This document shows, piece by piece, positions 30,600-48,117 of a DNA stretch of 48,117 nt; the first letter of the stretch is position 1; the number at the start of each line of letters is the position of its first letter. Where the stretch lies: contig CALVJO010000009.1 of the NCBI GenBank assembly GCA_944332225.1, forward strand, positions 1 to 48,117. The letters are read 5' to 3'. The translations under genes and the position numbers were made by a program. The notes beneath the pieces were generated by a model, which was not told the DNA's origin, did no database searches, and saw nothing but the letters and a program-made list of their open reading frames with translations. The DNA comes from an uncultured Bacilli bacterium. Lineage in GTDB: Bacteria; Bacillota_I; Bacilli_A; RFN20; CAG-449.

Positions 30600-31958
30600 A
30601 TGTTTAAGAGAAAAATATATGAAAAATTGCTAAAATGGAAAAATGAGTCTAAAGGCGAAACAGCAATTCTTGTGGAAGGGGCACGAAGAATTGGTAAATC
30701 TACTATCGTAGAGGAGTTTGCAAAAGAAAATTATAAAAGTTACATTCTTATTGATTTTTCCAAAGTTTCAAATTCTGTTAAAGAAGCATTTAATAACCTT
30801 CTTAATGATTTAGACTCTCTATTTATGGTGCTATCACTAGAATTTGATACTCCATTATACCAACGAGAATCAGTAATTGTTTTTGATGAGGTACAAAAAT
30901 TCCCTAGAGCTAGGGAAGCTATTAAACATTTAGTTAAAGATGGAAGATATGATTATATTGAAACAGGTTCCTTAATATCAATAAAGGAGAATGTAAAAGA
31001 TATTCTTATTCCTTCAGAAGAACAAAGCATAAAGATGTTTCCAATGGATTTTGAAGAATTTGCTTGGGCATTAGGAGAAGGAATGATAATTGAATACATT
31101 AGAGATTGTTTTGAAAAGAGAGTCCCATTACATGATTCAATTCACAAAAAAGCAATGTTTCTATTTAAACAGTATATGCTTGTAGGCGGAATGCCTAAAG
31201 CAATAGATAAATTTATTTCTTACGGTAAGCAATTTGTTGAATGCGAAAAAGAAAAAAGAAATATATTAAAAACATATCGTGATGATATTCATAAAATAGA
31301 TAGAGCGTACAAAGCGAAAGTCCTATCAATTTTCGACCAAATCCCATCTTTTCTTTCTCAACATGAAAAACGAGTAAAAATTAAATCTATTTCTACTGAT
31401 ACTACCTCGATTGATTACGAGGAAACATTCTTTTGGCTAAGTGATTCGATGATTTGTAATGAATGCTTCCTATGTACAGATCCTAACTTAGGATTATCAT
31501 TAAATGAAAAAAGAAATTATGTAAAGTGCTATATGGGAGACACTGGATTACTTTTGACACATACATTTGATGAAAATAATGAAGGACAAACAAATTATCA
31601 TAAAGAATTATTATCAGATAAATTATCAATTAATAAAGGCATGTTTTTTGAAAACATGATTGCTCAAATGCTTGTTTCAAATGGACACAAATTATATTTT
31701 TATACTAGATATAATGAAGAAAAGCATAGAAATGACATAGAAATAGATTTTTTACTGACAACTGGGAATAAAGTATCTCAAAAGTTAATTCCATTAGAAG
31801 TCAAATCCTCCAAATCATATAAGGTAGAATCAATGAAAAAATTTATTGAGAAATTTAATGATAGAATTGATAAGGCATATATAATTCATCCCAAGAATTT
31901 ATCCATTAGAGAAGATGGAATTATATGTATTCCTGCATATATGACAATTTGCTTATAA
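30600..31958 (+). CDS. AAA_14/DUF4143 ATPase with nuclease-like C-terminus
   Basis: A 452-residue ATPase. Walker A GARRIGKST is at residues 27-35, Walker B VIVFDEVQ at about 92-99 and a sensor-like ETGSLIS follows. The C-terminal DUF4143 region has the PD-(D/E)XK-like pattern EIDFLL, then PLEVKSS, so its nuclease-like residues are intact. Family members are scattered through gut bacterial genomes and their role is unknown. The gene has its own promoter and terminator and no CGCG site, unlike its neighbours, suggesting recent import between cdaA and deoD. Two relatives are at 35359 and 40393. Confidence 0.85.
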   Translation: MFKRKIYEKLLKWKNESKGETAILVEGARRIGKSTIVEEFAKENYKSYILIDFSKVSNSVKEAFNNLLNDLDSLFMVLSLEFDTPLYQRESVIVFDEVQKFPRAREAIKHLVKDGRYDYIETGSLISIKENVKDILIPSEEQSIKMFPMDFEEFAWALGEGMIIEYIRDCFEKRVPLHDSIHKKAMFLFKQYMLVGGMPKAIDKFISYGKQFVECEKEKRNILKTYRDDIHKIDRAYKAKVLSIFDQIPSFLSQHEKRVKIKSISTDTTSIDYEETFFWLSDSMICNECFLCTDPNLGLSLNEKRNYVKCYMGDTGLLLTHTFDENNEGQTNYHKELLSDKLSINKGMFFENMIAQMLVSNGHKLYFYTRYNEEKHRNDIEIDFLLTTGNKVSQKLIPLEVKSSKSYKVESMKKFIEKFNDRIDKAYIIHPKNLSIREDGIICIPAYMTICL

Positions 31959-35358: not shown

Positions 35359-36612
35359 TTAATAATTTAAACTATCAAAATCGAGTAAAAAATCGAATAG
35401 ATTTAATAGATATATTCCTTCATCAGTATAATGAGAACGAATTAAATCTTTTACAATTATGATTTTTTTAAACGAATCATCGATTCTAAGAAGCGAATTT
35501 TGTTCTTGCTCTAACTTTTCTTTTGTCGGAATAGAATAAGCCACTTGAATATAGTATCTTCTATCTATTAAATTACATACAAAATCAACTTCGGAAGCAT
35601 TTAGGACGCTTTTATTGTTTTCATTTTTAGAATAATATCTAACGACTCCAACATCTACGTTGTATCCTCGTCTTTTTAATTCATTATAAACAATATTTTC
35701 CATCAAATAAGTTTCTTCGACTTGTCTAAAATTCAATCTTGCGTTTCTTAAGCCAATATCAGTGAAGTAATACTTTGAAGGAGTATTTATGTATTTTTTC
35801 CCCTTGATATCATATCTTAATGCTTTCTCAATCAAGAATGAGTCAATAAAATAGTCTAGATAGTCCTTTAATGTTTCTGATTTTATATTAATTTGCTTTA
35901 CTGATTTAAACGTATCAGATAATTTTTTAGGATTAGTAAGTGAGCCTATCGATGATGATAACATGTCTAATAACTCTTCAAGCTCAGCATTATTTTTTAT
36001 ATTATTTCTTTCTTTAATATCTTTAATATAGGTTTCCGTAATAACATTTTTTAAATAATTTGATTTATCTTCATCAGTTTCAAAATCAAAAAGTTTAGGT
36101 AAACCTCCAAAATTCATATATTCTTTCCAGCCATCTTCCTTTGATCCTTTATAAGCAGTCATGAATTCTTTAAATGAAAGAGGATAGATGTGAATTTGGT
36201 CATCACGTCCCCGAAATTCTGTAATTATGTCTTTTGATAAAAACTTAGCATTACTTCCAGTTACATACGTATCAATGTTTTTAATATGAAGAAAACTATT
36301 AAGTACGTCTTCAAACTCACTTAACATTTGAACTTCATCAATAAGAATATAGTACATATCATCATCTATTATCTTCTTCATGACATAATCATAGAGATAA
36401 TCAGGATCCCTAAAGTCTTTATTACGTCTATCATCAAGAGCGATCTTTATAATATGGTCATTATTAATTCCCGTGGATATTAAATACTTGTAAAAGAGTT
36501 CGAATAGTAAATATGATTTGCCGCAGCGTCTAATACCTGTAATTACTTTAATTAATCCATTATGCCTATGTCTAATAAGCTTGTTAAGATATAAATCTCT
36601 TTTTATTTCCAT
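35359..36612 (-). CDS. AAA_14/DUF4143 ATPase
   Basis: A 417-residue ATPase with Walker A GIRRCGKSY (26-34), Walker B YILIDEVQ (about 88-95), the sensor TGSNAKFLS and the family hallmark PLSFKEFM. In its C-terminal DUF4143 part the nuclease-like pattern reads SEVDFVC, then YYIQVAYS: the E-x-K of active PD-(D/E)XK enzymes is Q-V-A, so it is probably inactive as a nuclease. AGAGGAATTAATAT precedes the ATG. The gene is free of CGCG, points opposite to the deoD run and lies beside the palindromic repeat at 36668, so it is probably imported. Confidence 0.88.
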   Translation of the reverse strand: MEIKRDLYLNKLIRHRHNGLIKVITGIRRCGKSYLLFELFYKYLISTGINNDHIIKIALDDRRNKDFRDPDYLYDYVMKKIIDDDMYYILIDEVQMLSEFEDVLNSFLHIKNIDTYVTGSNAKFLSKDIITEFRGRDDQIHIYPLSFKEFMTAYKGSKEDGWKEYMNFGGLPKLFDFETDEDKSNYLKNVITETYIKDIKERNNIKNNAELEELLDMLSSSIGSLTNPKKLSDTFKSVKQINIKSETLKDYLDYFIDSFLIEKALRYDIKGKKYINTPSKYYFTDIGLRNARLNFRQVEETYLMENIVYNELKRRGYNVDVGVVRYYSKNENNKSVLNASEVDFVCNLIDRRYYIQVAYSIPTKEKLEQEQNSLLRIDDSFKKIIIVKDLIRSHYTDEGIYLLNLFDFLLDFDSLNY

Positions 36613-37814: not shown

Positions 37815-39560
37815 TTAATAATATTTCTTTTTAATATCTTCGATGTTCTCTTTTAACCTTTCGCTAGGTTTAGAAGATAAAGTTTGCTTTAATTCAGAAT
37901 ATGTTCCTTCTAAAGAGAATATTCCTTGATACAACAAAGTTTCAACATCATCTAAATTAGTCACATTAGATATGATGATATCAAGATTTAAACTATTTAA
38001 TTGATCAATTAAAGAATGGTAGAGAATCTTCTCGTTTATATTAGTAGAATTAATCGAATATGGAGTGTTAGAGACAATTACTCCTTCGCACTTTTTTAAT
38101 ATATTTAAAGGAGGAGCAATCGGAGAAGATAGGGATAAATACATCTTACAATTATCACCCTTTTTATTTAAAAACTCTTGGAACAACGTATAATCATCAT
38201 TAGATAGAGATGATAATTCTTCATTTCTAACAACGAGATTCAATGAATAAGAATCTGAAACAAGATATTTAGTTAATGATTGATTCAAAACAAAGTTAAT
38301 TGGTAAAGGAATAAATACTTCCTTAGATATATCATTTTTATTAATTAAAGCTTTAGAATTAAAATCATGAGTTAATCTAATTTGAATGAGTTTAAAAAAT
38401 GCATCATAGAGATTATTTCTAGCTACAGTTTTAAAGAAATATGGATGGTCAATAAATGTTTTGGTGTTAGCTTCTATTTTTAAGATATAACCTCTTATAA
38501 CAATATTATGTAAATTTAAAATCGGTCGATAAGTAAAGGTGAAATCTCCTTTTTCAATAATCTCTTTAGCTTCATTATCTAAAATTTCTTGTAAGGTGGT
38601 ATCATAAGTCTTCTCAGATTCAGGAACATAATAGAAGGCTTGATTGTTTTCTAACTTATTATTGATTTTATAATTAGATAAGCCGCGACATTTTGATAAA
38701 AGGACTTTATAGTTAATTGAATTTCCTTTACCAAAGGCAATTGCCATATTAAAGCAAATCGGCGCGAGATTATTAATAGTAAAATATCTTGATAAAGCAT
38801 GTTCAATATGGGTAATTAAATCTCTATCAGTTTGAATATTATCAATAGAAGCGATGATAAAATCAGAATTCTTAAGTTTAACGATGAATCTATTCTTTTT
38901 AGTTTTTAATCTTTTTAAGACTAAATCTATAATTTTTCTTTCTTCAATTTTATCTAATAGCTCTTCATTATTTTTAATTAATTCTTGGTTATAGAAGGAA
39001 ACTAAACAAAACATCACCGATGATGTTTCCTTTAGATTCCTTAAGATCTCTTCTAAAGAATCTTTAGTTTTAATGTAAGTATCATCATGACGATTCTTCA
39101 ATAATTCAGAAGATCGATACTCTTCGATATGAATTAAATTTCTTTCTCGATTGATTTTAGATACTTGCAAAAGTAAATACATGATTTTTGCATTTCTAGT
39201 TTTACCATTATTAATATAAAGCTCTAAAGATTTACTAGTTAATAACGAAACACTTAATTGATTATAAAGCCATTGTTTAACTTGATTATCATAAGGGGCT
39301 AAAGTAGCTAAATACTCATCTAAAGTCATGATTTTAAAGATATCTTTAGTCTTAATATTCACGAGTTTAGCTGTCTTATTATATAAATCTATAGTCACTT
39401 GAGTTAAATTCTTAGTTTCATCGATTGCCTGGCTCATCTTTTGATTTCTATTTCGATAAAATAAAAAGAAAACTAACAAGATCAAAAAGAAAGCTAAAAA
39501 TAAAAGGAAGACGATTAGGAAGTGAAATGGTTGAATAACTAAATCAAGATAAATGCTCAT
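37815..39560 (-). CDS. Membrane protein with degenerate GGDEF and EAL domains
   Basis: A 581-residue protein. One strong transmembrane helix (about 12-36, very Phe/Leu-rich) is followed by a helical linker, a GGDEF-fold region (about 155-310) without a GG(D/E)EF motif, and an EAL-fold region (about 335-570). The EAL part begins FTYRPILNLHN, like the YQPI start of active domains, but where E-A-L should be it reads GYILKIE. It ends with LDIIISNVTNLDDVETLLYQ, the usual last helix. Both domains appear catalytically dead, so it may be a c-di-GMP receptor or a scaffold. GAGG precedes the ATG, and CGCG sites show it is native. Confidence 0.75.
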   Translation of the reverse strand: MSIYLDLVIQPFHFLIVFLLFLAFFLILLVFFLFYRNRNQKMSQAIDETKNLTQVTIDLYNKTAKLVNIKTKDIFKIMTLDEYLATLAPYDNQVKQWLYNQLSVSLLTSKSLELYINNGKTRNAKIMYLLLQVSKINRERNLIHIEEYRSSELLKNRHDDTYIKTKDSLEEILRNLKETSSVMFCLVSFYNQELIKNNEELLDKIEERKIIDLVLKRLKTKKNRFIVKLKNSDFIIASIDNIQTDRDLITHIEHALSRYFTINNLAPICFNMAIAFGKGNSINYKVLLSKCRGLSNYKINNKLENNQAFYYVPESEKTYDTTLQEILDNEAKEIIEKGDFTFTYRPILNLHNIVIRGYILKIEANTKTFIDHPYFFKTVARNNLYDAFFKLIQIRLTHDFNSKALINKNDISKEVFIPLPINFVLNQSLTKYLVSDSYSLNLVVRNEELSSLSNDDYTLFQEFLNKKGDNCKMYLSLSSPIAPPLNILKKCEGVIVSNTPYSINSTNINEKILYHSLIDQLNSLNLDIIISNVTNLDDVETLLYQGIFSLEGTYSELKQTLSSKPSERLKENIEDIKKKYY

Positions 39561-40392: not shown

Positions 40393-41598
40393 TTAGGATA
40401 GAAGAAAATCGATAATATTAACAATTTTTATGCCATTTATATTAGTAATATAAGTTTTATCCATAGTGAAAATCGTTTTTTCATAAAAATCATTCGTAGA
40501 ATAAAAAGCGCTGATTTCTCGTTCTTGAGTTACTTTATCTTTGATAGTTTCACTGACTTGAAAATAATGAGTTTCTTCTTTATTTATACAAACAAAATCT
40601 ATTTCTTTAGTATCGTTTTTACCAACATAAACTTGATATCCTCGACGTAATAATTCTAAATAGATAACGTTTTCTAATGTATGTCCATAATTTTCAAGAT
40701 TGTATCCGACGATAGTGTTCTTTAATCCTGTGTCGGCAAGATAATACTTTTCAAGTGATTTTAATACTTCTTTACCCCTGACATCATATCGATTAGCTCG
40801 ATAGATAATAAAGGCGTTTTCAAACATTTCAAGTATGTTAGCAATTGACGCAGGTCGTAATGAAGCATCTAGTTTAGCTTCATTAGCAACATATTTTGCT
40901 ATTTTATTAGCAGAAGTAATACTTCCTACATTATTACAAATAAAAGCAAAAATACGTTTTAATAAATCGATATCTTTAAGCTTATTTCTATAAAGGGCAT
41001 CTTTTAAAATAACCGTATCATAAATGCTAGATAAAAAAGACCCTATAGTTTGTTCATCTTGAGGCAAAGATAGAAGCTGAGGTAAGCCTCCATATTTAAG
41101 ATAATTATTAAATAGTTCTTCTTTGCTAATGCCTGTAGAAGAATAATATTCATAATATTCTTTAAAAGATAAAGGTAGTATTTTGATTTCAACATATCTA
41201 CCAGATATTAATGTTGATAGTTCTGAAGACAGTAAGTAGGCATTAGATCCTGTAACATATATATCTACATCATATTCAAGTGATAGAGAATTGACAGTTT
41301 TCTCCCATCCATTTACTTGCTGTATTTCATCAAAAAATAAATAATTCTTCTTATTTGGTAATATATTTTCTATAACTAAATCATAAAACTGTTTGTAATC
41401 ACGAATATTATCATATTTCATTAATTCAAAATTTATATATTGTATTTGTTCATTTAAAACTCCATTCTCTAAGAGTTCATCTTTAAACATTTGGAGTAAG
41501 GTTGATTTTCCTGATCTTCGTAATCCTGTGATAACTTTAATGATTTTGTTGTCCTTAAACGATTTTAATCGTTGCATATATTCAGTTCGATATATCAT
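40393..41598 (-). CDS. AAA_14/DUF4143 ATPase
   Basis: A 401-residue ATPase with Walker A GLRRSGKST (25-33), Walker B YLFFDEIQ (about 86-93), the sensor VTGSNAYLLS and PLSFKEYYEYY. The C-terminal nuclease-like pattern is EIDFVC, then YFQVSETI, so the E-x-K is replaced by Q-V-S as in the copy at 35359. AAGGAGG precedes the ATG. It lies between tRNA-Ser and the restriction-modification-like operon, transcribed away from the operon. It has no CGCG and is presumably part of the accessory DNA. Confidence 0.88.
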   Translation of the reverse strand: MIYRTEYMQRLKSFKDNKIIKVITGLRRSGKSTLLQMFKDELLENGVLNEQIQYINFELMKYDNIRDYKQFYDLVIENILPNKKNYLFFDEIQQVNGWEKTVNSLSLEYDVDIYVTGSNAYLLSSELSTLISGRYVEIKILPLSFKEYYEYYSSTGISKEELFNNYLKYGGLPQLLSLPQDEQTIGSFLSSIYDTVILKDALYRNKLKDIDLLKRIFAFICNNVGSITSANKIAKYVANEAKLDASLRPASIANILEMFENAFIIYRANRYDVRGKEVLKSLEKYYLADTGLKNTIVGYNLENYGHTLENVIYLELLRRGYQVYVGKNDTKEIDFVCINKEETHYFQVSETIKDKVTQEREISAFYSTNDFYEKTIFTMDKTYITNINGIKIVNIIDFLLS

Positions 41599-42126
41599 GA
41601 TGCAATCCTCCTTTATTTAAATTATAGTAAAAAAGTATAAAATATCATTAGTTTTTACGTTATAGAGTAAAAATAATAAATAGTAAAAGATTTTATACAC
41701 TATGTAGTTAATAATATTGCACAAACCAAGAACATTGAGTTAATTTAGGATTAAAGCAATAAAAATTATGACGCTTTTTTAAATGAATTTATATTGCATA
41801 GAAAATTAACTTGATATTATTTAGATAATATTCCAAATTATGAATAAATATTTTTTCATAACGATGCTACTGTTACTTTAACGATTACTGCAATAGCAAT
41901 ATTAGGCGCTCTTGCAGGGATTTTAATTTTTAAAGCTAACTACAGTATGAAACTTAATTATTTTAGATTGTTTGAGTGTAAACAAATTTACTATTGGTAA
42001 ATGATTATTGTTTCGGATAAAAGGATAAATATTCTCAAATAAATCCTATAAATGTATTAAAATGGTATTGACATACCAAATTAATGGTATATTATATTGT
42101 TATCGTTAAATATAGGAGGTATTCAG
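41599..42126. other. 528-bp intergenic region with a coding remnant and operon promoter
   Basis: Mostly AT-rich. At 41848-42000 a 50-codon open frame without a start codon reads NDATVTLTITAIAILGALAG, then IF and a Lys-rich tail. It resembles the membrane anchor of a surface or lipoprotein gene and may be the last trace of one, but could be chance. The right end contains the promoter and operator of the restriction-modification-like operon (42063-42095). Confidence 0.4.
42063..42095 (+). promoter_or_regulatory. Promoter with three TGGTAT half-sites
   Basis: TTGACA (42068-42073), 16-nt spacer, TATTAT (42090-42095). Three half-sites overlap it: TGGTAT (42063-42068), ATACCA (42073-42078) and TGGTAT (42085-42090). 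The middle and right ones form a palindrome around AATTAA inside the spacer, which strongly suggests repressor control of the operon. Confidence 0.7.
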
Positions 42127-43692
42127 GTGATTAATACGAAGTTTTGGGAATTGGCAAGTCTCGAAAAAGGGTTAAATTTAGACTCTAGCGAATCGTTATA
42201 CAATATATTTAGAACATTAAAAATTAATGAAGATTTGAAAGGAAAAACGGCAAACAATCCATATGAAACTCTTGAATCGTTAAAAAAAATAGATGCGCCT
42301 TATATTAAAGGTGACGAAAATCTTTTCTATGAGATTTATAGAAGATTAAATGAAATGTCCAACAGAACGCTTGTAGAGTATCTATACTTTGTTTTATCGC
42401 AAGAACGTAAAAATGTTATGGTTCCTGAATATTTGTTTCCGCTTATGTTCAAACACGTAAGTTGCGCAAAAACAGTGTTCGTCAATGATTGCGATAAGTA
42501 TGGCGTTAAACTTTACGATCTAATTTGTGAAAATACAAATACAACATTTTATCTTACCGTAAAAAACAATGTTCTATCCAAGCTGTTGCCTATATTGTAT
42601 AAAAGCAAAAACATTGAATTCATAAGTCCTGAAATTTATACTGATACTTTTACGCTTAAAAAATTCGACTTGATTGTTTCTTTTCCAATTATGGGTGGAA
42701 GAGAGCTTAATAGTTCTAGTGATTTCATTAGCAGAGAATTGAGTTTTATTGCCGCACAAAATCTTTTGTACCATTTGACCACGTCTGGGAAACTTGTCAT
42801 TTTGCTTCCTGCCAAGATTGGTTTCGGCAGTGGTGACGCAGAGATCTTAAGACATTATATATCAGAAAATTATAAGGTTGAGGAAATATCCTCACTTCCT
42901 TCTCGAGTATTTTATCCATACATGTCGATAAACACTTACCTTTTGACTATTTCAACTGGGACAACCGAAAATATATGCGTAAAAAAATATGATTTAAATG
43001 ATAAGAATCTAGTAGAAAAAGACACTAGACTTATCTTCTCTGATGAACTAGAAGAATTGAATGCTTGGAACGTGGATATATTATTTTCTGCTACTGATGA
43101 AACTATATTAGCTTACAAGAATTCACCAGTAAAGAAGGCCCCTTTGAGTGAGGTAGCAGAAGTATTTAGAGGCAAGGCAATAACAGAAAAAGTAGACGGT
43201 GGTAACGTTTCGGTTATTAACATTTCAAACATAAGTAATATCGGTATAGATTACGGTAACCTCGAAACTATAAATGAGGAAGAAAGAAAAGTTGCGAGGT
43301 ATCTTCTTCAAGATGGTGATGTTTTAATAACGACAAAAGGTTTTTCCATAAAGGTTGCTGTTTTTGAAAAACAACCAAAAATGTGCGTAGCCTCTTCTAA
43401 TCTTTGTGTAATAAGAACTCAATCAAAGCTACTTAATGGAACTTATCTTAAATTATTCTTGGAGTCAGACGTAGGGATAAAGTTGCTAAAGAGCCTTCAA
43501 AGAGGGACAGCAATTATAAACATAAATTATCAAGATATTAATCAACTAGAGGTTCCTATTCCACCATTAGACGATCAAATGGAAGTGGTCTATGAATATA
43601 GGCAAGGCTTGGATTTATATGTAAAAACTATCAATGCTGCTGAAAGTGCATGGAAAGCTATAAAAGCAGATGTACAAAAAAAATTATTTTAA
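42127..43692 (+). CDS. Fused degenerate adenine-methylase and type I specificity protein
   Basis: A 521-residue protein starting at GTG 42127, with GGAGG at 42115-42119. Residues 1 to about 320 follow the fold of N6-adenine methylases, with a helical start, YLYFVLSQERKNVMVPEYLF and LLYHLTTSGKLVILLP. The catalytic NPPF/Y motif, however, reads SFPIMGG after FDLIV (about 185-188), and no F-x-G-x-G SAM motif is visible. Residues about 338-521 are a type I specificity (HsdS) target-recognition half: KAPLSEVAEVFRGKAI, ending in IPPLDDQMEVVYEY. It may contribute a DNA-recognition arm instead of methylation. It is first in the operon, 11 bp before the ADP-ribosylglycohydrolase-HsdM gene. Confidence 0.75.
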   Translation: MINTKFWELASLEKGLNLDSSESLYNIFRTLKINEDLKGKTANNPYETLESLKKIDAPYIKGDENLFYEIYRRLNEMSNRTLVEYLYFVLSQERKNVMVPEYLFPLMFKHVSCAKTVFVNDCDKYGVKLYDLICENTNTTFYLTVKNNVLSKLLPILYKSKNIEFISPEIYTDTFTLKKFDLIVSFPIMGGRELNSSSDFISRELSFIAAQNLLYHLTTSGKLVILLPAKIGFGSGDAEILRHYISENYKVEEISSLPSRVFYPYMSINTYLLTISTGTTENICVKKYDLNDKNLVEKDTRLIFSDELEELNAWNVDILFSATDETILAYKNSPVKKAPLSEVAEVFRGKAITEKVDGGNVSVINISNISNIGIDYGNLETINEEERKVARYLLQDGDVLITTKGFSIKVAVFEKQPKMCVASSNLCVIRTQSKLLNGTYLKLFLESDVGIKLLKSLQRGTAIININYQDINQLEVPIPPLDDQMEVVYEYRQGLDLYVKTINAAESAWKAIKADVQKKLF

Positions 43693-43703
43693 GGAGACTT
43701 ACA

Positions 43704-46106
43704 ATGCTAGGTGTAATTATTGGTGATATTGTTGGCTCAAGATTTGAGTGGAACAATACCAAAAGCAAAGAATTTGAATTTTTTAATTATAAATGTGAGT
43801 TTACCGATGATTCTGTGATGTCGCTCGCTATTGCCAAGGCGATTCTGGATTCCAAAGAAGATTACAGCAATTTGGGTGAACTCGCAGTCAAATACATGCA
43901 GGAAGTCGGAAGACACTATCCTCACTGCGGCTATGGTGGATATTTCTCTAAGTGGATGATGTCGGACAATCCGAAGCCATATAACAGTTTCGGCAACGGA
44001 GCCGCAATGAGAGTAAGTTCTGTCGGTTTTGCTGCAAACAGCATGGAAGAGGCAATCAGCCTATCTCGAAAAGTCACAGAGGTCACGCATAATCATCCAG
44101 AGGGAATAAAAGGTGCAGAGGCTACTGCAGTTGCGATATATTTGGCAAAAACAGGTTCAAATATTCTCGAAATACGGGACTATATTAACAAGCACTATTA
44201 CCAGATGAACTTCAGACTAGATGACATTAGGGAAAGCTATAAGTTTAACGAAACTTGTCAAGATACTGTTCCTCAAGCGATAGAAGCCTTCCTTGAATCA
44301 AAGAATTTCGAAGATGCCATTAGAAACGCAATCTCTATTGGTGGCGATTCTGATACTCTTGCTGCGATAACGGGAGGAATTGCTGAGGCTTACTACGGCA
44401 TTCCAACGGATATAAGGAAACATGCATTGACTTTCCTTGACGAAAGACTGCTTACCATTCTTTTAGAATTTGAAAACGAATATGGAGTCTTGATGGAAAA
44501 AGGGACTCAAAAAGTAAAAACAAAAAAGAGAAAAATTAAAAAAGGAGAGCGATCTGCAATGATAGAAGAAGCTGTTGACAAAGCTGATAGCGATTTGCAA
44601 GAAACAGAAGTTGATTCAGAAGAAACGACAAGTAAAAAGCTATTTAATCACCTTTTTGAAGCATGCAATATCTTAAGAGGGCCAATCAATCAGGATGAGT
44701 ATAAATCCTATGTAACGCCTATATTGTTTTTCAAAAGAATATCTGATGTTTACGACGAAGAAACCGAAGCTGCAATAAGAGAATATGGCGAAGAGGCGGC
44801 CAACTTTGATGAACAACACTCGTTTGTTATTCCTGACGGATGCCATTGGAACGATGTGAGAAACACAAGCGTAAATGTTGGAATGGCTATCGTTAATGCA
44901 ATGAGCGGAATCGAAAGGGCTAACCCTGATACTTTGAGTGGCGTGTTCAGCTCCTTTGATGACGCAACTTGGACGGATAAAACGAAATTAGATGATGAAA
45001 GGCTCAAAAACCTCGTTGAGCATATGTCAAAAATCAAAGTTGGAAACAACAATTATTCCAACGATGTAATGGGCGATGCCTATGAATTCCTAATCAAGAA
45101 ATTTGCAGACTTGTCAAAGAAGAATGCAGGCGAGTTTTATACCCCAAGAACAATAGTCAAATTACTAGTCAAATTACTAGATCCGAAGCCAGGAGATGAA
45201 GTTTACGATCCTGCCTGTGGAACGGGTGGTATGCTAATAGAAGCTATTCATCACATAAACAATGATAGATTGACTTATGGACGAATTTATGGCCAAGAAA
45301 AGAATCTATCGACTTCTGCTATTGCGAGAATGAATCTTTTCTTACATGGCGCAAAGGATTTTAAGATTGTTCAGGGAGACACACTTAGAGATCCAAAATT
45401 CTTACGAGCAGGTAAGGTTCAGCAATTTGACTGCGTTATAGCGAATCCGCCGTTTTCATTAGATAATTGGGGCTCTACTCAGTTTGCAAGTGATCCTTAC
45501 GGAAGAAACATATGGGGATGTCCTACTGATTCCAATGGTGATTTTGCTTGGCTTCAACACATGGTTTCTTCTATGAAGAAAGATACAGGCAGATGTGCAG
45601 TTGTCTTGCCGCAAGGAGTTTTATTTAGATGCGGAAAAGAAGCTGACATGAGAAGACAACTTATAGAATCTGATAAGTTGGAATGCGTCATTACATTAGT
45701 TAGTGGTGTCTTTTATTCGACAGGAGTTTCAGCTTGCATTCTTTTACTGAACAACCACAAAGAAGCAGCTCATAAAGGCAAAATTTGCTTGGTAGATGGT
45801 TCGAAGTTTTATACTCCTAAAAGAGCACAGGTGTTGATGACTGAAGAAGATATAGACAAAGTTTTCAAAATTTATCAAAGTTATAGTGACGAAGTCGAGG
45901 TTTCTAAGGTAATCACAATAGAAGATGCTAAAAAGAATGGCTATACATTAGCTTTGAACAATTACATAGAAAAAAAGAAAACGGAGTCAGCTACTCCCGA
46001 GGAAATAAGGCGTCAATATTTTGATGCTTTCAGCAAGACGATTGAAGCCGAAAACAAAATGAGAAAATTGTTATTGGAAGGAGGATATATAAAAAATGAG
46101 CAATAA
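43704..46106 (+). CDS. ADP-ribosylglycohydrolase fused to HsdM methyltransferase
   Basis: An 800-residue fusion, with AAGGAG before ATG 43704. Residues 1-265 are a complete ADP-ribosylglycohydrolase (DraG/ARH family): GVIIGDIVGSRFE, FTDDS (33-37), FGNGAAMR and GGDSDTLAAI (213-222), so the metal-binding aspartates are all present. A charged linker (about 266-310) leads to a full HsdM: N-terminal helical domain, motif I DPACGTGGM (502-510) and motif IV NPPF (581-584), both intact. Inside the linker AAGGAG precedes ATG 44559 (Met286), so a free HsdM of 515 residues could also be made. The methylase half would modify adenine; the role of the ADP-ribose hydrolase is unknown. It overlaps the next gene by 11 nt. 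Confidence 0.9.
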   Translation: MLGVIIGDIVGSRFEWNNTKSKEFEFFNYKCEFTDDSVMSLAIAKAILDSKEDYSNLGELAVKYMQEVGRHYPHCGYGGYFSKWMMSDNPKPYNSFGNGAAMRVSSVGFAANSMEEAISLSRKVTEVTHNHPEGIKGAEATAVAIYLAKTGSNILEIRDYINKHYYQMNFRLDDIRESYKFNETCQDTVPQAIEAFLESKNFEDAIRNAISIGGDSDTLAAITGGIAEAYYGIPTDIRKHALTFLDERLLTILLEFENEYGVLMEKGTQKVKTKKRKIKKGERSAMIEEAVDKADSDLQETEVDSEETTSKKLFNHLFEACNILRGPINQDEYKSYVTPILFFKRISDVYDEETEAAIREYGEEAANFDEQHSFVIPDGCHWNDVRNTSVNVGMAIVNAMSGIERANPDTLSGVFSSFDDATWTDKTKLDDERLKNLVEHMSKIKVGNNNYSNDVMGDAYEFLIKKFADLSKKNAGEFYTPRTIVKLLVKLLDPKPGDEVYDPACGTGGMLIEAIHHINNDRLTYGRIYGQEKNLSTSAIARMNLFLHGAKDFKIVQGDTLRDPKFLRAGKVQQFDCVIANPPFSLDNWGSTQFASDPYGRNIWGCPTDSNGDFAWLQHMVSSMKKDTGRCAVVLPQGVLFRCGKEADMRRQLIESDKLECVITLVSGVFYSTGVSACILLLNNHKEAAHKGKICLVDGSKFYTPKRAQVLMTEEDIDKVFKIYQSYSDEVEVSKVITIEDAKKNGYTLALNNYIEKKKTESATPEEIRRQYFDAFSKTIEAENKMRKLLLEGGYIKNEQ

Positions 46107-47592
46107 TATACCACTTGAAGAATTAGAAAGCTATTTGTGGGGTTCTGCACAATTATTAAGAACAAACATTGATGCTGGTGCCTATAAGCAATATATCTTC
46201 CCTTTGTTATTCTTTAAAAGGATCTGCGATGTTTATGATGAAGAAACTCAAAAAGCGTTTGAAAAATATGGTGATGATTATAAAGAGTTCTCTGATGATG
46301 AATTACATACATTCATTGTTCCAACTGGATATCATTGGAACGACGTTAGAGAAACTGCAAGTAATGTTGGACTTGCGATAGTCACTGCTTTTAGAAAAAT
46401 TGAAAAAGCAAATGGCAACAAACTAACTGGAGTATTCGGAGATGCTGCTTGGACAAATAAAAACAGGTTACCAGATAGACTTTTGAAGGATATTCTTGAA
46501 CATTTTAGTACAAAGACGCTGTCAATTGAGAATTGTCCAGAAGACGAGCTTGGGCAAGGTTATGAATACTTAATAAAGAAATTTGCAGACGATAGTGGGC
46601 ATACAGCACAAGAGTTCTATACAAATAGAACTGTAGTTCATTTAATGACTGAGTTACTGCAACCAAAATCAGGTGAAAGCATTTATGATCCGACATGTGG
46701 TAGTGCAGGAATGCTTATTTCGTGTATCGCATATCTAAAAAACAAAGGTGCTGAATGGCGAAATGTTTCTGCATATGGGCAAGAAATAAACTCTCTTACT
46801 TCTGCTATAGGCAAAATGAATCTGTTTTTGCACGGAATTAAGGACTTCAATATTGTAAATGATGACACGCTCAAGAATCCTGCATTCATTGAATTTGGAC
46901 AGCTAAAACAATTCGATATAGTTCTTGCAAATCCTCCTTATTCAATATCTCAGTGGGATAGAACAGCATTTGAACATGATAAATATGGTCGTAACTTCTT
47001 AGGTGTTCCACCACAAGGAAGGGCTGATTATGCGTTTATACAGCATATCTTAAAAAGCCTTAAAAAGGATACTGGTAGATGCGCGATATTGTTGCCTCAT
47101 GGAGTACTATTCAGAAACGAAGAAGAAAAGGTAAGAGCTGAATTAGTTAAGAGCGATTTGCTAGAATGCATTATCGGTTTAGGACCTAACTTGTTCTACA
47201 ATGCACCAATGGAAGCTTGCATAATGATCTGTAGAACTCCGACACAAAAAGCAAAAAGACGTGGACAAGTTTTGTTTATAAATGCTGTAAATGAAATCAC
47301 TCGAAAAAACGCTCAAAGTTATCTTGAGGATAAACATATAGATAAGATTGCGTCAGCATACAAAGAATACAAAGAAATCGAAGGTTTCTCAAAAATTGCA
47401 ACAATCGATGATATTGCACGAAATAACTATTCGTTGAGTATTCCTTTATATGTAAGAACAAATGACATAGAAACTCAAAAAGAAGATATCTCATTGGAAG
47501 AACAATTTAATCAATGGGATTCTTCATCTACAAGAATGAGAAAGAATTACGAATTATTGAATGATTTGATTGCAAAGGAGGCCAAGAAATGA
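46096..47592 (+). CDS. hsdM: Type I restriction-modification methyltransferase subunit
   Basis: N6-adenine methyltransferase subunit of 498 residues, of normal length. The HsdM N-terminal domain (LEELESYLWGSAQLLR, then YKQYIFPLLFFKRICDVYDE) is followed by the SAM motif DPTCGSAGM and the catalytic NPPYS. The C-terminal region ends with a helical tail, RMRKNYELLNDLIAKEAKK, that should contact HsdS. It is clearly related to the HsdM half of the preceding gene but diverged, so it is an old duplicate or was acquired separately. AAGGAGG precedes the ATG, and the stop overlaps the hsdS start (ATGA). Confidence 0.94.
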   Translation: MSNNIPLEELESYLWGSAQLLRTNIDAGAYKQYIFPLLFFKRICDVYDEETQKAFEKYGDDYKEFSDDELHTFIVPTGYHWNDVRETASNVGLAIVTAFRKIEKANGNKLTGVFGDAAWTNKNRLPDRLLKDILEHFSTKTLSIENCPEDELGQGYEYLIKKFADDSGHTAQEFYTNRTVVHLMTELLQPKSGESIYDPTCGSAGMLISCIAYLKNKGAEWRNVSAYGQEINSLTSAIGKMNLFLHGIKDFNIVNDDTLKNPAFIEFGQLKQFDIVLANPPYSISQWDRTAFEHDKYGRNFLGVPPQGRADYAFIQHILKSLKKDTGRCAILLPHGVLFRNEEEKVRAELVKSDLLECIIGLGPNLFYNAPMEACIMICRTPTQKAKRRGQVLFINAVNEITRKNAQSYLEDKHIDKIASAYKEYKEIEGFSKIATIDDIARNNYSLSIPLYVRTNDIETQKEDISLEEQFNQWDSSSTRMRKNYELLNDLIAKEAKK

Positions 47593-48117
47593 GCAGAGTA
47601 AAGCTGAGTGATGTTGCTAGAGAGCACAAAGAAACCGTAAAAGGTGATAAGTCTAATTATCCTATTGTCGGCCTTGAGCATTTGATTCCTGAAAATATCA
47701 GATTAACTCAATGGGATTTAAATAAAGAAAATACATTCACCAAGATCTTTAGAAAAGGATGTGTTTTGTTTGGCAGGAGAAGAGCTTATCTCAAAAAAGC
47801 AGTATATGCTGATTTTGATGGAATTTGTTCTGGCGATATAACTGTAATCGAAGCAATACCAGAAAAAATACTTCCTGAATTACTTCCGTTCGTTATTCAA
47901 AACGATGATTTGTTTGATTATGCTGTAGGCAAATCTGCTGGTTCTCTATCACCAAGAGTCAAATGGGAGCATTTGAAGAATTACGAGTTTGAACTTCCTG
48001 ATATAGAAAGACAACTTGAATTAGCCAAAATGCTATGGTCGATTGTAGAAACAAAGGAGTCATACGAGAGATTAATGGCAGCAACCGATGAGTTGGTGAA
48101 ATCTCAATTTATCGAGC
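47589..48117 (+). CDS. hsdS: Type I specificity subunit HsdS, 3' end beyond window
   Basis: The frame starts at ATG 47589, overlapping the hsdM stop by 4 nt (ATGA), and stays open to the window edge (176 codons). The translation begins MSRVKLSDVAREHKETVKGD and has target-recognition-domain landmarks: YPIVGLEHLIPENIRL, FRKGCVLFGRRRAYLKKA, SGDITVIE, SPRVKWEHLKNYEFELPDIE and a coiled coil (MLWSIVETKESYERLMAA). It supplies the DNA sequence specificity of the complex with HsdM. At least one more target-recognition domain is expected after the edge, and hsdR may follow. Confidence 0.9.
   Translation, partial: MSRVKLSDVAREHKETVKGDKSNYPIVGLEHLIPENIRLTQWDLNKENTFTKIFRKGCVLFGRRRAYLKKAVYADFDGICSGDITVIEAIPEKILPELLPFVIQNDDLFDYAVGKSAGSLSPRVKWEHLKNYEFELPDIERQLELAKMLWSIVETKESYERLMAATDELVKSQFIE

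Follow-up and report, generated by a model that had tools for sequence, protein, structure and literature searches.

MS is a probable autorepressor of type I restriction operons

The gene at 42127-43692 (plus strand) in a contig from an uncultured Bacilli bacterium encodes a 521-residue protein, here called MS, that is very probably (we put the probability at about 0.8) a transcriptional autoregulator acting by repression and derived from a catalytically dead type I methyltransferase. From sequence comparisons and a predicted structure, we infer that MS binds a palindrome at its own promoter, that it does so as a dimer, and that this binding represses the operon. The window, meaning the whole stretch of DNA analysed, is an entire contig of 48117 bases.

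Structure and lost catalytic motifs of MS

The MS reading frame runs without interruption from a GTG start at 42127 to 43692, and a ribosome-binding site, AGGAGG, can be read directly upstream of this start at 42114-42119 (plus strand); a mechanically called alternative TTG start at 42097 lies 5′ of that site and is unlikely. In a structure model with a mean pLDDT of 85, residues 1-321 (42127-43089, plus strand) form a pseudo-methylase domain with the predicted fold of HsdM, aligning to the HsdM structure 3lkd_B with a VIA-align Z-score of 24.2 (rmsd 3.3, 318 residues aligned), which bears out the first-pass annotation's reading of residues 1-320. Residues 325-521 (43099-43689, plus strand) correspond to half of a specificity subunit, with one recognition domain (TRD) and a C-terminal dimer helix, and align closely with Esub1 (8vsq; Z 26.3, rmsd 1.9, 196 residues aligned, 41% identity). 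Pfam detects only the C-terminal part of N6_Mtase (residues 202-297, E 6.8e-6) together with Methylase_S (PF01420, residues 333-486, E 5.9e-13), and no other domain; neither Pfam nor fold comparison reveals a helix-turn-helix. The conserved helix that follows the recognition domain in HsdS is present in the model at residues 481-520, and by both Pfam and fold comparison the second recognition domain of a full HsdS is absent from the chain. The specificity half had been described as intact, and as a half domain it is.

Both catalytic motifs of the methylase half are lost. At motif IV (residues 186-189; 42682-42693, plus strand), alignment with the window's own HsdM proteins places FPIM opposite NPPY, outside the pattern (N/D/S)PP(Y/F) of HsdM motif IV; the loss of NPPY reported in the first-pass annotation therefore stands, while the tetrapeptide given there, SFPI, is one residue off. 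At the SAM-binding motif I (residues 119-128; 42481-42510, plus strand), alignments show a conserved [ED]x[ED]K in place of the glycine-rich loop, in agreement with the earlier claim that the loop is missing. Homologues with the same degenerate motif, which had been suggested as worth a search, do exist: there are 49 distinct relatives, the window protein included. Among them the motif IV Asn position holds Leu in 25, Val in 11, Phe in six, Ile in four, Ser in two and Cys in one, and never Asn or Asp; the first proline is kept in all 49 and the second in none. Both acidic positions of the motif I replacement are likewise present in 49 of 49, and its lysine in 45. Because 49 relatives share the loss, it lies beyond chance or a single sequencing error. 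Alignments and model together confirm MS as an HsdM fold without catalytic motifs joined to half a specificity subunit.

Conservation and distribution of MS

A search of 395 genomes of the class, with a match threshold of E 1e-20, gave MS matches in 12, counting the window's own genome. A scan of named genomes yielded 54 MS loci, mostly in Bacillota, with a few in Proteobacteria, Spirochaetales and Fibrobacteraceae MAGs; a phylum sample contained no further member, and a search of a phage collection gave no useful result. Of the 54 scan loci, 47 entered the alignment. Seven loci that are cut by contig ends or broken (L062, L089, L090, L091, L092, L095 and L096) stand outside it, and three copies (L045, L049 and L088, equal to L031, L032 and L034) were removed. 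We refer to the 49 distinct aligned members with motif IV loss as clade A, and to a looser group of eight members, 19-23% identical to the window MS, as clade B. Most clade B members retain a motif-I-like stretch, and NPPY is mostly not kept.

For sampled pairs, NG86 omega ranges from 0.07 to 0.29 in the pseudo-methylase (computable for 7/9 pairs) and from 0.03 to 0.14 in the TRD (8/9 pairs), values indicating that these MS proteins are under purifying selection. This selection, with the identical loss in 49 relatives, rules out a recent pseudogene. Recent duplication of the operon's HsdM is ruled out as well, this time by the phylogenetic tree, where a branch with 100/100 support separates clade A from the operons' cognate HsdM proteins.

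Operon context

In the window, MS is co-oriented with two HsdM genes downstream, all on the plus strand. The nearer (43704-46106) encodes an ADP-ribosylglycohydrolase-HsdM fusion (PF03747, E 5.3e-37; PF02384, E 1.6e-94; PF12161), whose start codon is uncertain, the mechanical reading frame opening at 43650. The second HsdM gene (46096-47592; PF02384, E 7.8e-94) retains NPPY and is followed by an HsdS gene (47589-48116; PF01420, E 5.7e-6) truncated by the contig end. At least 1 kb of downstream sequence is available for 46 of the 49 distinct MS loci; in 41 of these 46 an Hsd gene lies behind MS on the same strand within 9 kb, and in 30 HsdM, HsdS and HsdR all do. MS thus belongs to the operon, as had been proposed from the window alone, and gene order normally puts it first in a type I operon. 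Relatives on plasmids of Salimicrobium, Lactococcus and Lactobacillus, annotated as 'N-6 DNA methylase', have a similar arrangement, and a Paenibacillus plasmid relative is solitary. A few loci in which MS stands beside genes unrelated to restriction-modification (L082, L084, L085) count against a role as operon repressor.

Several features of these loci merit mention in their own right. The ADP-ribosylglycohydrolase sits at the N-terminus of the first of the two HsdM proteins, and such a gene follows MS in 11/46 loci. The contig end falls within hsdS both in the window (47589-48117) and in L031 (1-529), and a tyrosine recombinase adjoins extra hsdS genes in L033 (1606-4418), L032 (13917-17251) and L065; together, these contig ends and recombinases suggest that the hsdS locus is phase-variable and causes assemblies to break. 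At L061 13345-14448, a RhuM-family gene (PF13310, E 2e-112) lies between HsdM and HsdS, and clade B operons encode, behind MS, a protein of roughly 175 residues that looks conserved (L036 8978-9505, L038 10110-10631, L040 10475-10990). Pfam gave no match above cut-off for five small accessory genes (in L036 and L038, and at L061 11400, L075 1871 and L054 11264). Upstream in the window, three AAA ATPases that look similar lie within 11 kb; the one adjoining the operon (40393-41598) matches the PADLOC model PDC-S01 (E 9e-150), and the other two (30600-31958 and 35359-36612) were judged by eye only. The protein at 37815-39560 has a hydrophobic stretch at its N-terminus and matches an EAL domain only faintly (E 0.004, below cut-off); it is perhaps a degenerate cyclic-di-GMP protein.

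A palindrome at the MS promoter

Although the regions upstream of MS genes hardly align otherwise, they share the palindrome TTTRGTA-N6-TACYAAA. The proposed operator of the window, AATGGTA-TTGACA-TACCAAA, lies at 42061-42080 (plus strand), with its core GGTATTGACATACC at 42064-42077, and scores 14 of 16 against the family consensus. Its spacer is exactly the -35 hexamer TTGACA (42068-42073, plus strand) of the best promoter match in 41560-43800, whose -10 hexamer, TATTAT, lies at 42090-42095 (plus strand). This promoter matches the consensus at 11 of 12 positions with a 16-nt spacer, and its -35 centre coincides with the operator centre.

The strict form RGTAN6TACY occurs in 41 of 57 MS promoters, with 0.7 expected from dinucleotide shuffles, and elsewhere in the MS loci at 0.011 per 260 bases. 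Scores refer to the consensus TTTRGTATNNNNATACYAAA, of which 16 positions are informative and which was derived from the same promoters as those scored, except for the later-found members: 36/57 promoters reach at least 15, compared with 0/3596 background windows, and 44/57 reach at least 14, compared with 2/3596. The later-found set comprises ten members, two of which (L132 and L138) are identical to known ones and were left uncounted; of the eight that differ from earlier members, five score 15-16/16 and three, all from the L093 subclade, have a 7-nt spacer. Two loci on viral contigs (L097, L098) score 16. By comparison, nine type I loci in which we found no MS score only 12-13 at best anywhere. 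A sigma-70-type promoter could be placed for 49 promoters, a list that includes the near-copies L100 and L101 and spurious clade B rows for L037 and L038; in 31 of them the operator centre lies no more than 1 bp from the -35 centre, and in 15 a second layout places the site 18-33 bp upstream of it.

Against a reversed-pattern control, the site shows no clear genome-wide excess in ten genomes, and the window's own genome holds 43 loose sites versus 177 for the control. There is therefore no regulon to speak of, and these counts rule out a global regulator.

Thirteen of the 57 promoters score below 14. Six of them belong to the eight clade B members (L035-L038, L041 and L042); L067 and L072 contain N-gaps, L093 has the 7-nt spacer, and the other four, L031, L034, L050 and L066, are simply weaker, at 12-13. 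A 7-bp spacing between half-sites characterises a subclade formed by L093, L136, L137 and L139; a longer C-terminal helix was considered as its cause and rejected, as no indel was found. Where the TRD itself is different, in clade B L035, L037 and L038, the palindrome becomes TTACGTTT-N4-AAACTTAA or close to that, and two copies, separated by about 40 bp, lie around the -35 box. The candidate operator thus follows the TRD, a differing recognition domain going with a differing site. Two TTTGGTA-N6-TACCAAA sites surround the promoter in L039, as do two TTTGGTA-type sites in L040, and two [AT]TAGTA-N7-TACTAA sites are present in the relative on the Lactococcus plasmid. The clade B relative at L041 9397-11112 has no restriction genes nearby and carries a ATAAGGTA-N8-TACCTTAT palindrome just before its start; it might control something other than restriction genes.

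Proposed mechanism and alternative explanations

We propose that MS forms a dimer through its C-terminal helices, in the manner of half-HsdS proteins, and that the two identical recognition domains of the dimer would read the half-sites TTTRGTA and TACYAAA, 6 bp apart. Because a dimer on 42061-42080 would cover the -35 box that the palindrome overlies in the operon's own promoter, exclusion of RNA polymerase is the simplest reading of its effect. Such exclusion would limit expression of MS together with that of the downstream HsdM, HsdS and HsdR genes. There is precedent for this geometry: the portion of PMC6158711 that we draw on reports an engineered fusion of HsdM with half an HsdS whose dimers read the palindrome ACCN5GGT, and a pneumococcal paper (PMC6265443), in the part relevant here, infers symmetric split-palindrome reading for an N-terminal recognition domain.

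The first-pass annotation had instead suggested that MS may be a stand-alone DNA-targeting subunit of the operon, its methylase fold kept only as a docking platform; we took this to mean a subunit added to the restriction-modification complex that docks with the two HsdM proteins through the dead fold. The intact HsdM fold and half-S domain, and a gene co-oriented with two HsdM genes, speak for this reading, which we nevertheless consider quite unlikely. The operons have their own HsdS, and a targeting subunit must change with the specificity of the enzyme. Among the 70 closest of 138 related pairs of systems (pairs that are not independent), the recognition half of MS has a median identity of 75% and its dead domain one of 65%, compared with 34% for HsdS; HsdM (67 pairs) and HsdR (55 pairs) have medians of 86% and 85%, the HsdM value for L033 (44-46%) coming from a comparison of two different HsdM genes. 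MS thus lacks the variability of an HsdS specificity domain among close systems, and its recognition half stays constant while HsdS drifts, so that MS does not set the enzyme's target and a targeting role is unsupported. The contrast is sharpest in four loci from Alphaproteobacteria MAGs (L052, L053, L080 and L081), where MS, HsdM and HsdR are 97-100% identical and HsdS only 37-64%; MS must thus read something fixed, whichever target the enzyme has at the time. The docking platform finds no more support, since a dimer-type palindrome at the operon promoter, without genome-wide excess, indicates the operon's control region as the target. Contact with HsdM or HsdS may instead be how MS itself is controlled.

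If MS is an autoregulator, it could also activate its operon, or both activate and repress it in the manner of a C protein. Activators also work from sites upstream of the -35 box, as in the second layout; L033, L051, L057, L060, L065 and L101 have it some 25-27 bp ahead of the -35 centre, and five clade B loci (L035, L037, L038, L039 and L040) carry paired sites around the promoter. Activation, alone or mixed with repression, is nonetheless unlikely, because a site centred on the -35 box, the arrangement of the window and of the majority of placeable promoters, fits occlusion, and a promoter as close to consensus as that of the window should need no help. The palindrome might also be the site of an unrelated regulator of the host, with MS serving some other task, given that the pairing of protein and site is deduced from their association. 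We regard this as very improbable: the site accompanies MS across very different hosts, from several Bacillota groups to Alphaproteobacteria MAGs, is absent from the nine type I loci in which no MS was found, and differs where the MS recognition domain differs (L035, L037 and L038).

An extension of the repressor model, possible though doubtful, is that MS also works as a decoy sensor, with phage-encoded DNA mimics (Ocr, ArdA and others) pulling it off the operator. As MS copies the shape of a type I methylase, mimics that block restriction would bind MS too, and phage counter-defence would itself turn the restriction operon on. The idea is attractive in view of Prx, a streptococcal prophage protein that, according to the title of the 8vsr entry, was co-crystallised with Esub1, the nearest solved relative of the MS recognition half. 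We take this Prx to be paratox, which PMC11129628 describes as binding ComR on the positively charged face that contacts DNA. A clade B repressor with a kept SAM motif could, in addition, sense SAM.

Relation to known systems and significance

Autogenous control of restriction operons is already known, from C proteins, methylase-repressor fusions and RptR. As the relevant part of a review (PMC12707154) describes, C proteins act through operators at their own promoters, and one precedes a type I locus of Mycoplasma gallisepticum. MS loci likewise carry a candidate palindromic operator at their own promoter, but C proteins are small helix-turn-helix proteins, unlike the 521-residue MS, which shows no such motif. 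The same part of the review covers EcoRII, SsoII and Ecl18kI, in which the methylase chain also represses its own operon; these are active enzymes with a fused repressor domain, whereas in MS catalysis is lost and the type I recognition domain would itself read the operator. RptR, in the portion of PMC12255303 used here, is like MS encoded just before type I operons, yet it is a 79-residue, all-helical gammaproteobacterial protein that recognises TAGCTA repeats and has no methylase or specificity domain; MS departs from this helical dimer in size, fold and operator.

Closest to MS in architecture is the engineered CC398 type I fusion of 2018, which, as far as the excerpted text of PMC6158711 goes, joins HsdM and half an HsdS in one chain and acts as a dimer on a two-part palindrome, as we propose for MS. 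That fusion is an active, laboratory-made methylase, while MS occurs naturally, without the catalytic residues, and has its own promoter as its proposed site. Esub1 (8vsq; with Prx, 8vsr), whose recognition domain is the nearest solved structure to that of MS, is represented in its entry by a domain of about 200 residues, without the methylase half; its parent protein was not found in the literature, plasmids, phages, class genomes or viral contigs. Adenine methylases of the CamA and M.BseCI type also hold a methylase and a recognition domain in one chain with a fold like that of MS, but they were solved as methylases on cognate DNA, and MS lacks motifs I and IV. Our literature search, which covered few subscription papers, returned no regulator in which a dead methylase carries a type I specificity domain as its operator reader. 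To our knowledge, no known regulator class combines such a reader with a dead methylase body.

If the proposal is correct, Bacillota type I systems would have dedicated transcriptional control, of a kind that the consulted parts of the literature describe for RptR and for one Mycoplasma C protein. Annotation would also need correcting for the plasmid relatives now called 'N-6 DNA methylase'. Moreover, with both the protein and its proposed site known, and each of them variable, the MS family would lend itself to a clean test, in natural proteins, of the way in which specificity domains pair on DNA.
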